From contig JSYX01000010.1 of NCBI GenBank assembly GCA_000787465.1, forward strand, positions 1 to 64,000: a stretch of DNA of 64,000 nucleotides. Reading direction: 5' to 3'. The position numbers were made by a program, and so were the translations under genes. Under the pieces are notes generated by a model. That model was not told the origin of the DNA, ran no database searches, and worked only from the letters and a program-made list of their open reading frames with translations. Positions 6,318-64,000 of the stretch are shown here, one piece after another. Source of the stretch: Thermomucor indicae-seudaticae. Its lineage: Eukaryota > Mucoromycota > Mucoromycetes > Mucorales > Lichtheimiaceae. The stretch's first letter is position 1, and each line of letters begins with the position of its first letter.

Positions 6318-9300
6318 TTTGAGCTTTTAATGCAATATTTACTTCCTTGTACACAGTACTTCCTGCATGAACCCTTCATCCTTTCTCATTAGAAGACTAG
6401 TCACCTTTCCTTCTTTTCTGTAACCTGTATTTTGGCTCTTTCCAGAGTGTTTGCACAAAGAGAACATTGACTTGCTCAAGGACAATGTGACTATGTATAA
6501 AAGCTTCACTTTGCTTACGTATATCTAATCGATCTTCGGATACTGTCTGAAACTGGCCTAGGAAGTAGTACAGAGAGAGCTCTACTATTTATTTGTTGCA
6601 CAACTGACTGCATTCAAGATGTTATCCATTATTTTAAGCTATAAGAGGGAGTGACCTAATCAATCAAGCCACCGTTTGTCGGGCAGAGCTTGTCGTCGGC
6701 GAGGGGCTGAACGCCGATTGTCGCTCGTTCCTTGCTATGGAGTCTGCATATTTTTCTTATGCCTGTTGTTGTTGCTCTTGCAGAGGAGTAGTGCCATCAT
6801 CGGAAAATGGAAGCAGCCTTTGAAGGCCTCCAGTGCCTTCTCGTGTCATTTCTCAGCTTTGCATCCGTCACCACCTTGATTTTATAAGTTTCTTTTGAGA
6901 GCCTCCACATACGCTTCAGACGACCATGATAGGGAAACCGAGACGTGCAAATTGAATCACTAGAACACCGGGTTTCAGATAAATGTTTGTGCTGCTGTAG
7001 ATGGTCTTGCGTCAATTGGGGACGCCATTTACGCTTTAGATAAACAAAATTTGCGTACATGAATTAAAAAAATTTGCATAAAATGACATTTTTATTTTGC
7101 ACTTACTTCTCGCGCAAATGCGAGCGCATCCGACGCAAAAGTCAACCCCGGCAGCATTAATGTTGTGTTTTCGTTATTCTGTCACTGTATTACCTCTTAC
7201 CGATCCTATTAAGAAAAGATTTAGTACGCCCGTCCGTTGGAATCTTGTATTACACTTACAAGAACACTCAACAGGAGAGTGTGCTATTCCGTATGTCTGT
7301 CCCATTGACAGAAGCCGCCACAGCACCGGACCTGTGAGAAACATTTTATCAGCATCGATATTAAATTCTAAAGATGATATACCTTACCGGTGTGGGACGT
7401 AGTGATTTTATTCAGCTTCGTTTGAATCGCTGAATTTTTTGAGAAAGGATGCAATGTCTCGCCAGTGAGCAAGAAGCTAGCACACGCCGAGCAACTCAGG
7501 GCCATAACGAGCACCGTGCAAGATGTCGCATGAATCTAGCTTATTCTATATAACCCTCTTCTAGCGGCCTAATCATGTTACAAACCTTTTTTATCTTTAT
7601 AAATACGTTACCCTTGGATTACTGACATGCGCAAAAAGAAGGAAAACTACATGAACTGCTGCGCTTAAGAAAAAAGAAGGGCGTAGTTTTTGCCAGACCT
7701 ATACTGAATATTGCTCATATTTGGTGCGCACATCCTCCAGCAAAAGGCCAAATGGAAAATGGAATCAGTGCAAAACGGCCTTGGCCAGCAACGCCAAAAG
7801 GTTTTCGTAAGCGCAAATCAGATGGAAAAAAGTTTATGGGGTCACGAGCATGAAGACATCATCTTTCTGTAAGGAGAGTGGTAGCAAGATAAGCGTTGAT
7901 GGATTTTTCAGGGCTTCTTCTACACTTTCAGTAAATGCTAGTCTACGCTGATGCTTCATGTAGCGTCTTGCAGCAGCTTATTATGTCATGAAGGATCAGT
8001 TTGGCAATGGGGGCATAGAACTATCGCTTCATAAATTTTGAGAATTTCAGTTGAAAGCTATATAATAAAGCACAACTACATTACTACTCTTTCCTATCCC
8101 TTCTTATCAAGTTTATCATCATTGCAAGTCATAAGCATTTCCATAGATAGCTATCTTCCTACTGGTTCAAGCTGGCATTGCCTAGCTCTTTCGCGTCATC
8201 CAGTGAGTCTACTTTATGCAAGCTACAAAACATCCTCTTGTTAGCAAGGTATCCGATCTGCAAGCGTCTTTCTGGGATGCTGAGTTCGTGGTTATCAAAT
8301 ACTGTACGATCGTGCATAGATTGCTTTGCATCTCCCAGATGGAAACTGTGCCTGTTACTCGATTTGTGGCTAGAATAAAGCAACGTCGCACATTCTTTCT
8401 TTCTTTCTTTTTTCGTAATGACCTACAAGTGGTGAATGATTATCTCCATTTGTTTCATGGCGAACTGTCTTTTCTTGGGAATATGATCCTCCATTTTAAC
8501 CGGCTTCCGTTTATTCTATGGGTATGTGCAGATTTCGTCTTTTGCGTACCCTCACCCACTTGCTTTTTAAAAGGAAATGATACATGCTTTACCGTAATAT
8601 ATATCAAATGGAAACAGACTTGCCAGTATGATAGGGAATTGCTTAAGCACAGCGTTACAGCGACATACCATGGACCATAGAAGGATAACTATGGATCCCG
8701 TTCTATGATGTGCATATCAACACGGAGGCTCGGACCGATTTCATTCAGAACTTCCATGTAACTCTTGGTTTTGTTTGTCTATACTCTCTCGCTACATACG
8801 TCACAAAGGTGAGGTATTGGTGTCCGCATTACTGGCCGTCATACATCCGACTATTTTGATGTTCGTTTTCATCGGTCTATTGCTCGTAGTTGCCAAGAGG
8901 AACCCCTTCCTTCGAAAATGCCTTAAAAAATCCCTCACATCCCCAAAGGATAAGTGTTATCTATCAGCTCGAAAATTTTCGGGGCATTCCGGAAAAAATG
9001 AGATAAGCTCGTGCCTGTCAAAAATGCTATAAATAGACACCCTTTTGACACTCGATTCCCACGCACCTGTTTCTCTCTTCGCAAAACTTCCAGCACTTAT
9101 GAACTCTTGATCACATTTTGTACTCTCGTATCCGTATCATGTCTTGTTGACGTATCTCAAACTGGTCTGGTCACTATATATTGGCCAAAACACTCGAAAT
9201 CCTTGTCACTGCAACATTTTCTTGCTTTTCAGTCCGCGATGTGCTTCGTATTGGGGTATGTTTGACTGTTGCTCGCTCTAACCTTCTGTGGATCCTTTTG

Positions 9301-58375: not shown

Positions 58376-59644
58376 TTACTGCCCCAATAGCTGCGTCCGT
58401 TCGTTAGGTTCTGTTTCATCCGTGATTCGCGCACCATGCAAGTCGTCGATACCAAGACGCTTGTTCCGAACGTGCCAGACGATGCATAATACCAATAGAG
58501 TTCCCTGCAGCAAGCCAGTGACAAGGTAAGTAATCCAAGCCGTCCAGTTGGTCCCGGGTCGAACCATGAGCGAGTAGACAAACAAAGCAGAACCTTTAGA
58601 CGGTATATGTCAGTGATGGCCCTTACGGGGCATGGCGTCTTCTTTTACCTGGGGTCTGCAGTAACATCATCGGGATACTCAATGCTCCGACAGACTACGA
58701 AACAGTTAGCGCAATGACCCTTTTTGATATGTGTCACAAGTCAATCCATTACCTTGCGTTTCCAAGTCTTGTAAATCTGCGGTAAATATTGAAACGATGC
58801 AAGTACCATACTCAAAAGACCAAGAAAACCAGCCCAGTAGTTGGTCTGCCAGTGCTCGGAAGGACTTCCGACGAGGGCCAACAATAGAACCGTGATAAAG
58901 AAGGAAAGGGCAAGATGACCAATACAAGCAGCAGCAACAAACAGGGAAACTTTCCATTCAGCAGTTAAGGGGGCCATCTGTTGGACCTTGCTAGGTAATT
59001 CAAGACCAATAGTAGGTGCATCACCGTTATTAACCACACGCTTGCGGTTTTCGGGGAAATAGATCAAGAACAAGATGAAACTTGTTGTCAAGAAGGTTAA
59101 AGTTAGGAATACAAAACTTATGATCCGGGTACCCTGCTTGCCTGTCAACTTACACAAGACTGAACATGGCCCATTGAAGCATGATTTGAATGACGCCCAA
59201 AAGACTTTCTAGACATGCTCCTGTGGACTATATGCCAAGATGTCTTCAGTTATCACGTAACTAAATATCAGAAGGAGGGAACTCACGAGATATCGACAGC
59301 AGACGATTGCATCCCACTGCAATAGGATGATATTGAAAAAGCTTGAAGTTGACGAGACCACACCGAGAAGAAGAAACCAGGCACTAAAGCCTTCGCTTGT
59401 CTTGTTCACAATAATACGATAATGCTAAAGAACTCTATAAGCACATTGTTTGCCTTTTCATAAGTTATACGCATAAATTCTATCTCACCTGTGGCAGATA
59501 TGAAACTACTAGACCAATGCATAGGAAAACGCTGATAGCTGTCGTCATTTTGTCTTGATGCGAACCACATTGCGGCCTAGTCACCGTCACCGCGAATGTA
59601 GGTAGAATGCCATTCTGAATGGCACCTGCAACGGAATCGATCAT
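58376..59644 (-). CDS. PQ-loop repeat membrane protein
   Basis: About four to five minus-strand exons. The N-terminus has RPQCGSHQDKMTTAISVFLC, then GLVVSYLPQ, the first PQ motif, followed by IVNKTSEGFSAWFLLLGVV. A long middle exon reads SLFVAAACIGHLALSFFITV and FLGLLSMVLASFQYLPQIYK, the second PQ motif with the usual TWKRK after it. The C-terminus has GTNWTAWITYLVTGLLQGTL and a hydrophilic tail ending ERTQLLGQ, which looks like a dileucine sorting signal (ERTQLL). About seven membrane helices are expected. The PQ-loop family includes cystinosin, Ypq1-3 and Any1; the subfamily is not certain from motifs alone. The terminal dileucine suggests a vacuolar or endosomal location. Confidence 0.83.
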
Positions 59645-59834
59645 GTAGAAACTGAAACTGAGAAAGAAGAACGCAAAAATGTCAAAAGCTTCGGCTCACC
59701 AATTTTACACGTTACTTTTCCCGAGGCAAGATGACTTTATTTAACCTATACTTATGCGAGATAATAAGACTAGTGAAATAACCATGTTACAGAATGGAAG
59801 AGATGGCTCTTCTTTAATGTCATTTGGATTGATA

Positions 59835-61516
59835 TCACGCAGAAGATGCCAACATGGCTGCCAATGCAGCGCCAGTGCCATGACTATCACGGGTGCTCTG
59901 CATAATTTGCCACTTAGTAACTAGCAAGGATCGTGTGATGCAGTATCATTACTTACACCAATGGTAATCCGGTCGATACCAGAGCCAAGAATAGCTCTCA
60001 GTGACTCGTTGACGCGGTTGGGGAAGTTAGGATAATGCTCGTATATGTTCCCTTCGACGGCTTAAATAAACCCTTTTAGTTCTCTCGCTCATTTAATAAA
60101 CCAAAGCGATTGAAACTTACTTAGCGTAACATCATTATCTAAAGCGTTGCATTTTTCAAGGATCGCACTCATTGCAGCGGCAACAAGCTGAGACGCTCTT
60201 TGACCCACAAGCTCACACATCTTTTTTACGGCTCTTCTGTCATTGAGTGTGGTTGAAGGCAGACCCATGATCTCCTCGAGGATATGTTGCGTCTCTTCCA
60301 ACTGTGATGTCTGGTCCGACTCGATCGTACTCATATAGGAGACCTCGAAACTGTAGGGTGTGTTCAGTTCTCGTGTGTATTGACAGTTGAACAAAAGGCG
60401 ACGGTCGAGGAAATCAATCATGATGTTTCGTACGAGTTCTCCGAGATACAGACCAGACACCATCTTCTCAAACAAGTGCACACCTGGGTTCCAGGACTCG
60501 CGGTTAAGCCGGTTGTCATAGAACGTTCGTGGCAGAAAATCGGCGTTCTTGTCGCCAAATGATCCCCACTCCGTGTTAATGATCATTTCCTCGGCCTCAG
60601 TCGCATCAGCGACTTTCTGACATTCACTAATTCTTTCCCAATACGCTTCACAGCAGTATTCAGTCAGACATGTGGTCCAAACTCCGGGAACCTGCATATC
60701 TTTTACCTGCGTTGGTTCCAGTACTGATGGTGCAGCCCAATAAGGTGTCCAGACTACGATAGCTATGCGCCAATAAACACGCAACTATAACATAGTTTCA
60801 GCCATTAAACCAGATACATGAATTTATGCGAAACCTTACCGGCACTGTTCAAAACTGCTTTAACCACCACAGGTAGTTCGCGTCGCTGAAATGCTGTTTG
60901 TAACATGTCAACAATGTTCTTGCCATCAGCACCAGTGATTTCGAAATCTTTGGTCCACTGAATCACGGACGCCTTGTTCAAAGCTGTTTGTTGCAGTGGA
61001 AACGAAATGACGAAGCCCAAAGCCAAGGGTGTACTGGGATTGCTCCTGGCCAAATGTGACAGGAACGTGTCTACGGAGATCGCCAAGAAATCAATGAGCT
61101 TCGATACTGGGCCTTTTTTGAGATCATCGTGTATATGATATTTCGATTGGTGTTTAATCTTGATGCGACCTTGTCCTTGCAATTCCACAAAATAAATGCG
61201 AACATACGACCCTGACAAGGGAAGAAAAAGTGGTGAGCTGCCTCGGAAAGCAGAATTGTCGAGGTGGGTCGCGTGATCTTTTACCGCTTAATTCCAAACC
61301 AAGGTATTCGCCAGTCTCTTGGCCAGTCGGTCGACGCGTCACCCAGGAAGGCAGCATGGGCACGTTGCTGCGATCGCTCTTCAGACCCTCCTCCATTTCC
61401 TTTTGAAGTCTCTGGGAGAGCTGTTTTAGCTGCTCAACAGAAAGCTGTAGCTGCTGTGAAAGCTCCTCAAGAGCCTCAGCTAGTGCTTGTTCGTAATCGG
61501 TCGTTAGTATTGACAT
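59835..61516 (-). CDS. Hexokinase-like protein with degenerate active site
   Basis: Six exons (61516-61285, 61211-60840, 60784-60707, 60645-60121, 60060-59957, 59897-59835) give 457 residues, all joins in frame. The hexokinase frame is clear: LPSWVTRRPTGQETGEYLGL, ALGFVISFPLQQTALNKASV, IQWTKDFEITGADGKNIVDM, RRELPVVVKAVLN, TISTGTNAAYWE, MIINTEWGSFGDK and FEKMVSGLYLGELVRNIM. Two key sites differ. The first phosphate loop LDLGGTNFR is LELSGSYVR, and the catalytic Asp of the NDT motif is Ser200 in LNSAVAC. The later IFGTGTN is TISTGTN and the last DGSGxGAA is DSHGTGAA. Glu in EWGSF is kept. The protein is likely inactive, comparable in principle to the fungal atypical hexokinases XprF/HxkC and HxkD, which regulate protease genes. 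Confidence 0.85.
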
Positions 61517-62117: not shown

Positions 62118-62348
62118 ATGTCACCGTCCGCTGTTCAATCTAATAGCACCAACAAAGCGTCGCCAGTAGTAGAAGACAATGCGGCTGATTGCGACTGGCA
62201 AAAGTGGCTCAAGGAAGTGGAAGGCGCAGAGTCTCTCATGGACCAACTGGAAGCCAAGGCGGATCTCTTGCAGAACAAAATGACTGCATTGCTCGCTGAA
62301 ATGGCGGAACATGCCAAGCAGAACGATACAACACGGCCAAGCCAATAA
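62118..62348 (+). CDS. Small coiled-coil protein, unrecognised
   Basis: From ATG 62118 the frame encodes 76 residues: a short Ser/Thr-rich start, the conserved-looking DCDWQKWLKEVEGAESLMDQ, then a heptad-type helix (LEAKADLLQNKMTALLAEMA) and a polar tail. The open frame extends upstream to about 61710 without an obviously conserved sequence. Acidic, coiled-coil small proteins of this kind often join larger assemblies. I do not recognise the family. It lies between the divergent hexokinase-like gene and the convergent kinase gene, with its stop 179 bases from the kinase stop. Confidence 0.5.
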   Translation: MSPSAVQSNSTNKASPVVEDNAADCDWQKWLKEVEGAESLMDQLEAKADLLQNKMTALLAEMAEHAKQNDTTRPSQ

Positions 62349-62526
62349 TAGCCCCCCGTTTGTTATATCTTTTTGGATTTTTATTGGGAGCAGTATAAGT
62401 AGAAGAGATATAAATAACGGAATGGATGCGAAAAAGAAGGGAAACTATGTACAATCGGGGGACAAAAAGGGTGGATGGGTGGGGTGAATGCATGCTATTA
62501 GATAGGCGTGTATATACATATTATTA

Positions 62527-64000
<1,474 letters not shown>

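Follow-up and report, generated by a model that had tools for sequence, protein, structure and literature searches.

The question raised by this locus is what keeps in place a gene whose product has the full architecture of a hexokinase without the residues of phosphoryl transfer. The window, i.e. the whole stretch of 64,000 nucleotides of Thermomucor indicae-seudaticae DNA that was analyzed, carries such a gene at positions 59835..61516 of the reverse strand, and we conclude that it is an intact, selectively maintained and, judging from its residues, predicted non-catalytic hexokinase. The gene was rebuilt from the DNA as six exons, all on the reverse strand: exon 1 (61285..61516, with the ATG at 61516), exon 2 (60840..61211), exon 3 (60707..60784), exon 4 (60121..60645), exon 5 (59957..60060) and exon 6 (59835..59897, with the stop codon TGA at 59835-59837). 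The introns are 73, 55, 61, 60 and 59 bases long, all five with GT-AG borders, and the coding sequence of 1374 bases, including the stop, has no internal stop codon and encodes 457 residues, as the earlier note had described. The same five introns were obtained by homology-guided splice alignment of the window DNA to a Rhizomucor pusillus protein (P0001), and the two models disagree at the ends only, where the alignment starts two residues late and carries a spurious terminal piece. A 25-base version of intron 3 was abandoned for the 61-base one, which is also the one in the homology model and yields the aligned sequence GTNAAYWER. The Pfam profiles Hexokinase_1 (E 1.2e-59; 201.9 bits, cut-off 24.3) and Hexokinase_2 (E 7.7e-77; 258.4 bits, cut-off 24) both match the protein with full coverage, and the NCBIfam profiles gave only a sub-threshold match to allose kinase. 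The downstream neighbour is a gene for a PQ-loop membrane protein (58741-59695, reverse strand) and the upstream neighbour a protein kinase gene (62498-63097, reverse strand); a 75-codon open frame that lies between these neighbours and the hexokinase gene, at 62121-62345 of the forward strand, has no Pfam match.

The lesions concern the catalytic base and both phosphate loops. Where the catalytic Asp is expected, the protein has Ser200, encoded by AGT at 60844..60846; the codon and its coordinates are those given earlier. The phosphate-1 loop is degenerate, reading LELSGSYVR (residues 74-82, spanning intron 1, 61198..61297) in place of the LDLGGTN.R of catalytic relatives, and the phosphate-2 loop reads TISTGTN (residues 220-226, 60711..60731), with Ser222 in place of Gly; both replacements, SGSYVR where GGTNFR is usual and TISTGTN at the G-T-G loop, had been reported correctly. 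The predicted sugar contacts, on the other hand, are retained in ISFP (residues 146-149, 60997..61008), WTKDF (residues 163-167, 60943..60957; Thr164 and Lys165), TISTGTN (Asn226), NTEWGSF (residues 251-257, 60557..60577; Glu253) and HLFEKM (residues 284-289, 60461..60478; Glu287), all on the reverse strand. Splicing does not repair the lesions: of 10,144 candidate GT/GC-AG junctions 20-1000 bases apart, only a few create GG[TS][NH] (11), NDT (3), NDA (4) or GTG.N (5). Among those listed, the first of each class, these sequences are misplaced or in the wrong context, and none brings back both motifs in the gene's reading frame.

The assembly that holds the window (24.77 Mb, 735 contigs) was searched with the two Pfam profiles, which identified 11 places, the window gene included. 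Two of them, the window gene and L014 (contig C545), belong to the group that we call family A. Every residue checked is retained in L009 and L015, so that the catalytic service is covered by other genes. L012 and L013 retain NDT and GGTHLR and have Gly at the site of Thr168, and L012 additionally has Ala at Gly227. L010 (G000:C459) and L011 (G000:C374) form part of a second group, family B, with a different set of lesions. Finally, L016 (G000:C65:8646-10284) looks decayed, with stops within conserved stretches, as do L017 (G000:C18:28831-29103) and L018 (G000:C31:95316-95525), whose short matches are interrupted by stops and frame breaks; hexokinase copies thus do decay in this genome when they are not needed.

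In order to delimit family A, the spliced window protein was compared with 7,995 candidates, which gave 152 matches, of which the best 120 were listed. Among the matches listed, where each cluster carries one name, family A is named in at least 31 genera of the Mucorales, Umbelopsidales and Endogonales, and the closest named relative is R. pusillus (71% identity). A search with L009 gave at least 120 relatives of the catalytic type, including Glomeromycotina and Mortierellomycotina. The residue alignment contained 239 proteins (nine matches longer than 640 residues were omitted, and P0108 was kept outside the compared groups), and 82 family-A rows were compared with 122 catalytic relatives and 30 more distant matches. 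From here on residues carry the numbers of human glucokinase, assigned by motif. None of the 80 family-A rows that can be scored has Asp205 (Gly in 73, Ser in 6, Asn in 1); Gly80 is lost in 65 of 65 and Gly227 in 80 of 80 (Ser in 79, Arg in 1), whereas all 122 catalytic relatives and all 30 distant matches retain the three residues. The catalytic Mucorales hexokinases of the L009 and L015 types therefore differ from the window protein in these residues, while sharing its fold, its domain architecture and about 40-45% identity. The rows are database clusters that include many close species and some fragments, so that they do not stand for 82 independent events, and one loss explains all 82. The boundary of family A was initially drawn by match number when the residues were already known, which makes these residue counts circular; a tree built without the motif columns recovers the same division into 29 family-A and 45 other rows.

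The residues that hold the sugar follow a different pattern. Thr168, Lys169, Asn204 and Asn231 are retained in 80/80 family-A rows, Glu256 and Glu290 in 82/82, and Phe152 and Pro153 in 79/80. Ser151 is retained in 71/80, including the window protein, and is replaced by Ala in 8; the one F/Y/V reading at Ser151-Phe152-Pro153 probably comes from a misaligned fragment (P0118). The catalytic rows have the same set, with Thr168 and Lys169, in 122/122, except for Pro153 (117). The window protein thus retains every hexose contact residue except Asp205; the column of the further contact Ser336 is uninformative, as it varies in catalytic rows also. At the ATP-contact sites, family A retains Thr82 in 10/65 rows, Asn83 in 20/65 and Ser411 in 1/65, with Thr228 in 57/79 and Gly229 in 79/79. 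The contacts are those of human glucokinase, for which PMC2706991 lists Thr82, Asn83, Ser411, Thr228 and Gly229 for ATP, and Asn204, Asp205, Glu256, Glu290, Phe152 and Lys169 for glucose. Nine other sites are fixed differently in family A and in catalytic rows at 90% or more, as expected from an altered yet constrained role.

Family B shows the opposite lesion. A profile made from L010, L011 and P0108 gave 134 matches, the best 120 of which were listed, and residues were counted in 80 rows of at least 380 residues from the 111 taken as B. The catalytic Asp is kept in 77 of the 77 rows scorable for it, whereas in all 80 rows Lys169 is replaced by His or Tyr and both Thr168 and Ser151 are lost, as is Pro153 in 78/80. 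Arg85 is also lost in all 80 (Tyr in 78, Phe in 1, Asn in 1), the DGSG motif is mostly HSRI, and the ATP loop is lost; Asn204, Asn231, Glu256 and Glu290 are retained in 80/80. The two families therefore share a non-catalytic state by residue, a distribution across the Mucoromycotina and possibly a sister-group relationship; they differ in that B keeps the Asp and loses Ser151, Thr168 and Lys169, and A does the reverse. Among the matches listed (P0108 and P0241-P0331), B is named in at least 35 genera, which include 30 of the 31 genera named for A. Jimgerdemannia is named for A without B, and Lichtheimia, Gongronella, Hesseltinella, Parasitella and Bifiguratus for B without A, these absences being weak, with one name per cluster and 7,995-7,997 candidates scored in each of the A, L009 and B searches. 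The fact that A is unnamed in Lichtheimia, Gongronella, Hesseltinella and Bifiguratus, though B is named, suggests that A may be dispensable. In the databases, proteins of both families are called "hexokinase-domain-containing", "glucokinase" or "hypothetical".

The explanation that we consider probable, with moderate confidence, is that family A acts as an ancient regulator, non-catalytic but able to bind sugar, and signals through movement of its cleft. Family A would have lost the apparatus of phosphoryl transfer (the catalytic Asp and the Gly of both phosphate loops) while keeping the residues that hold the hexose. A hexose entering the cleft would move the two lobes, and this movement would change the choice of partner, be it a further copy of the protein, a catalytically active hexokinase or some signalling protein, with no ATP consumed. 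The inactivity of the protein, its sugar binding, its movement, its partner and its pathway are what we infer from the pattern of losses and retentions: loss of the base and of the phosphate loops, together with retention of SFP, Thr168 and Lys169, argues that the hexose is still held. Such a sensing device can work, as shown by catalytically dead AtHXK1 G104D and S177A, which still signal according to PMC6306471, and by yeast Hxk2 dimers, which glucose breaks without ATP (PMC10228819). AtHXK1 S177A moreover binds glucose in the crystal (PMC8256278). These mutants share with family A the lost phosphate-loop Gly and the retained sugar pocket, and sensing has been reported for them; they were, however, engineered from an active wild type, whereas family A is natural and fixed in fungi. 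On the opposite side, PMC6306471 also records that catalytically inactive KnHXK1, an engineered hexokinase from the plant lineage, failed to signal, and PMC10228819 that the transcriptional (repression) role of yeast Hxk2 is disputed. Asp205 also counts against a sugar-sensing role, since it contacts glucose itself and is lost in family A; in human glucokinase, Asp205His leaves no activity, and the Asp205-glucose contact is required to trigger the conformational change (PMC3265476).

The same residues allow a second reading, in which family A provides a scaffold or a regulatory subunit, non-catalytic and blind to sugar, whose pocket residues are kept for folding or for an interface with active hexokinases. 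We regard it as possible, though distinctly the less likely. Asn204, Asn231, Glu256 and Glu290 are kept in family B as well (80/80 each), despite the loss there of Thr168, Lys169 and Ser151, so that these four residues may be structural, the inference of sugar binding is weakened, and it rests mainly on SFP, Thr168 and Lys169. The absence of the sugar contact Asp205 and the documented dimers of yeast Hxk2 (PMC10228819) fit a scaffold too. What stands against it is that Lys169 and Thr168 are retained in 80/80 family-A rows, though the fold of B manages without them.

A more far-reaching version of the sugar-binding regulator takes both families together. One hexokinase would have given up the use of ATP before the radiation of the Mucoromycotina and split its dead site, A providing the sugar grip without the base and B the base without the grip, to give a two-part hexose sensor. 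This is speculative and rather unlikely as a whole; if true, sensing and catalysis would have been separated naturally in hexokinases. The possible sister relationship of A and B has support of 91/93 in a tree of 52 rows, which is not conclusive. AU tests did not reject a placement of A with hexokinases of the L009 type (p 0.109), and gave p values of 0.021 for A placed with the L015 type and 0.009 for B placed with the L015 type.

It is also conceivable, although improbable, that the window protein is still an enzyme, either by a relocated base, Asp166 beside the Lys of WTKDF, or by another phosphoryl donor. This Asp is the family-A substitution for a Gly that is fixed elsewhere: it follows Lys169 in 72/80 family-A rows, where 122/122 catalytic and 30/30 distant rows have Gly. 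The remaining 8/80 rows have neither this Asp nor the normal base, so that a relocated base was rejected as the general reason for upkeep, and the glycines of the phosphate loops are lost as well. The exceptions are the Endogonales rows P0057 and P0073 (Gly) and P0079 (Glu), Dichotomocladium P0044 (Gly), and rows of Absidia, Halteromyces and Cunninghamella (Ser/Thr). As Endogonales rows are without the replacement, the Asp probably arose later than the loss of the base.

The age of this loss was approached with trees. A maximum-likelihood tree of 74 proteins, built without the motif columns, unites the 29 family-A rows in a single clade (100/99), in which the Endogonales branch first, then the Umbelopsidales and then the Mucorales, and the window protein is sister to that of R. 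pusillus (100/100). The 52-row tree likewise has a clade of 12 family-A rows at 100/99. One motif-free clade with the Endogonales first places the predicted loss of catalysis before the separation of the three orders, which took place hundreds of millions of years ago.

As precedents for inactive hexokinases with regulatory roles, the earlier note had named HxkC/XprF and HxkD of Aspergillus. The comparison is fair as regards inactive proteins with a regulatory role; of the hallmarks of those proteins, the window protein shows those on the ATP side only. As described in PMC3821154, HxkC and HxkD (XprF) are negative regulators of XprG-dependent protease production in Aspergillus nidulans; their adenosine-binding domain contains an additional stretch, and they lack some of the sugar- and ATP-binding residues. 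What they share with family A is that both are fungal hexokinase homologues without catalytic residues, with a regulatory role that for family A is presumed. Compared by description, HxkC and HxkD have the insertion and the sugar-site losses, whereas family A has neither, except for Asp205, and belongs to a different lineage, the Mucoromycotina. Measured between two chosen anchors, the adenosine-binding region of the window protein spans 64 residues; of 56 long family-A rows, 55 have 64-66 and one has 87, against 64-72 in 112 catalytic rows. Six loci of the NDT80_PhoG family, that of XprG and Ndt80, are present in this genome (on C206, C344, C91, C13, C19 and C32), against 6 in Mucor circinelloides and 7 in Rhizopus delemar according to PMC4683649; as they match Mucorales numbers, an XprG-like partner is conceivable and we put it no higher. 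Orthology of the window protein to HxkC or HxkD would agree with the similar kind of lesion and with these six loci, XprG being their thought route of action; it is nevertheless most improbable, given the absence of the extra stretch, the retained sugar residues, the grouping with Mucoromycotina rows only (in a tree without HxkC and HxkD), and the lack of named Ascomycota among the best 120 of 152 homologues, some of which are nameless. Function in the manner of HxkC and HxkD is possible; membership in their group is not supported, being set apart by the printed descriptions. When 56 long family-A rows were scanned for basic clusters (K-K/R-x-K/R), 6 had one, the window protein not being among them, and a nuclear-import mark on it was rejected.

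The proposal that selection keeps a non-catalytic protein was borne out by a comparison of the window gene with its own paralogue L014. Both are non-catalytic and lie within the family-A clade, so that their divergence accrued without catalysis. They are 64.7% identical over 450 aligned codons (the L014 model is automatic, with its third exon edge and ends approximate), and differ at 27%, 17% and 62% of first, second and third codon positions. The selection measure named earlier, run here on the paralogue, is not neutral: pN is 0.22 and pS 0.81, with dN 0.26 and dS saturated; the catalytic paralogues L009 and L015 give pN 0.35 and pS 0.84 (438 codons). In 500 simulations without constraint at equal third-position divergence, no sequence had fewer than 8 stops (mean 20) or more than 18% identity. 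Conservation between orthologues agrees: in 8 of 9 hand-picked matched species pairs, family-A identity is within 5 points of that of the catalytic orthologue, the exception being Jimgerdemannia/Umbelopsis (51% against 67%, i.e. 16 points lower). Together with the family-wide losses, the loss of catalysis and purifying selection on the window gene are well supported. A recent pseudogene or an artefact of the gene model, which the decayed-looking copies L016, L017 and L018 might bring to mind, was rejected as hardly credible in view of the open and intact frame, the five canonical introns at positions shared with L014, the 71% identity to the R. pusillus protein, a pN far below pS and the stops in the simulations.

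Inactive regulatory hexokinases as such are already known; a description of a Mucoromycotina-wide family A or B was not found in the literature searched, whose scope left out many subscription papers. The points that go beyond the earlier note are the retained sugar contacts, the sharing of the lesion across the Mucoromycotina and the unexpected presence of a second family with the opposite lesion in the same genomes. The argument on whether sensing can be separated from catalysis has so far used engineered yeast and plant mutants, with conflicting results. Family A represents a natural counterpart of those mutants, with the base and the phosphate loops gone and the sugar grip kept, evolving about as slowly as the catalytic enzymes and fixed across an old fungal lineage. 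Work on this protein and its genes would open the question of sensing versus catalysis to direct test, and might show by what means sugar is sensed in these fungi.
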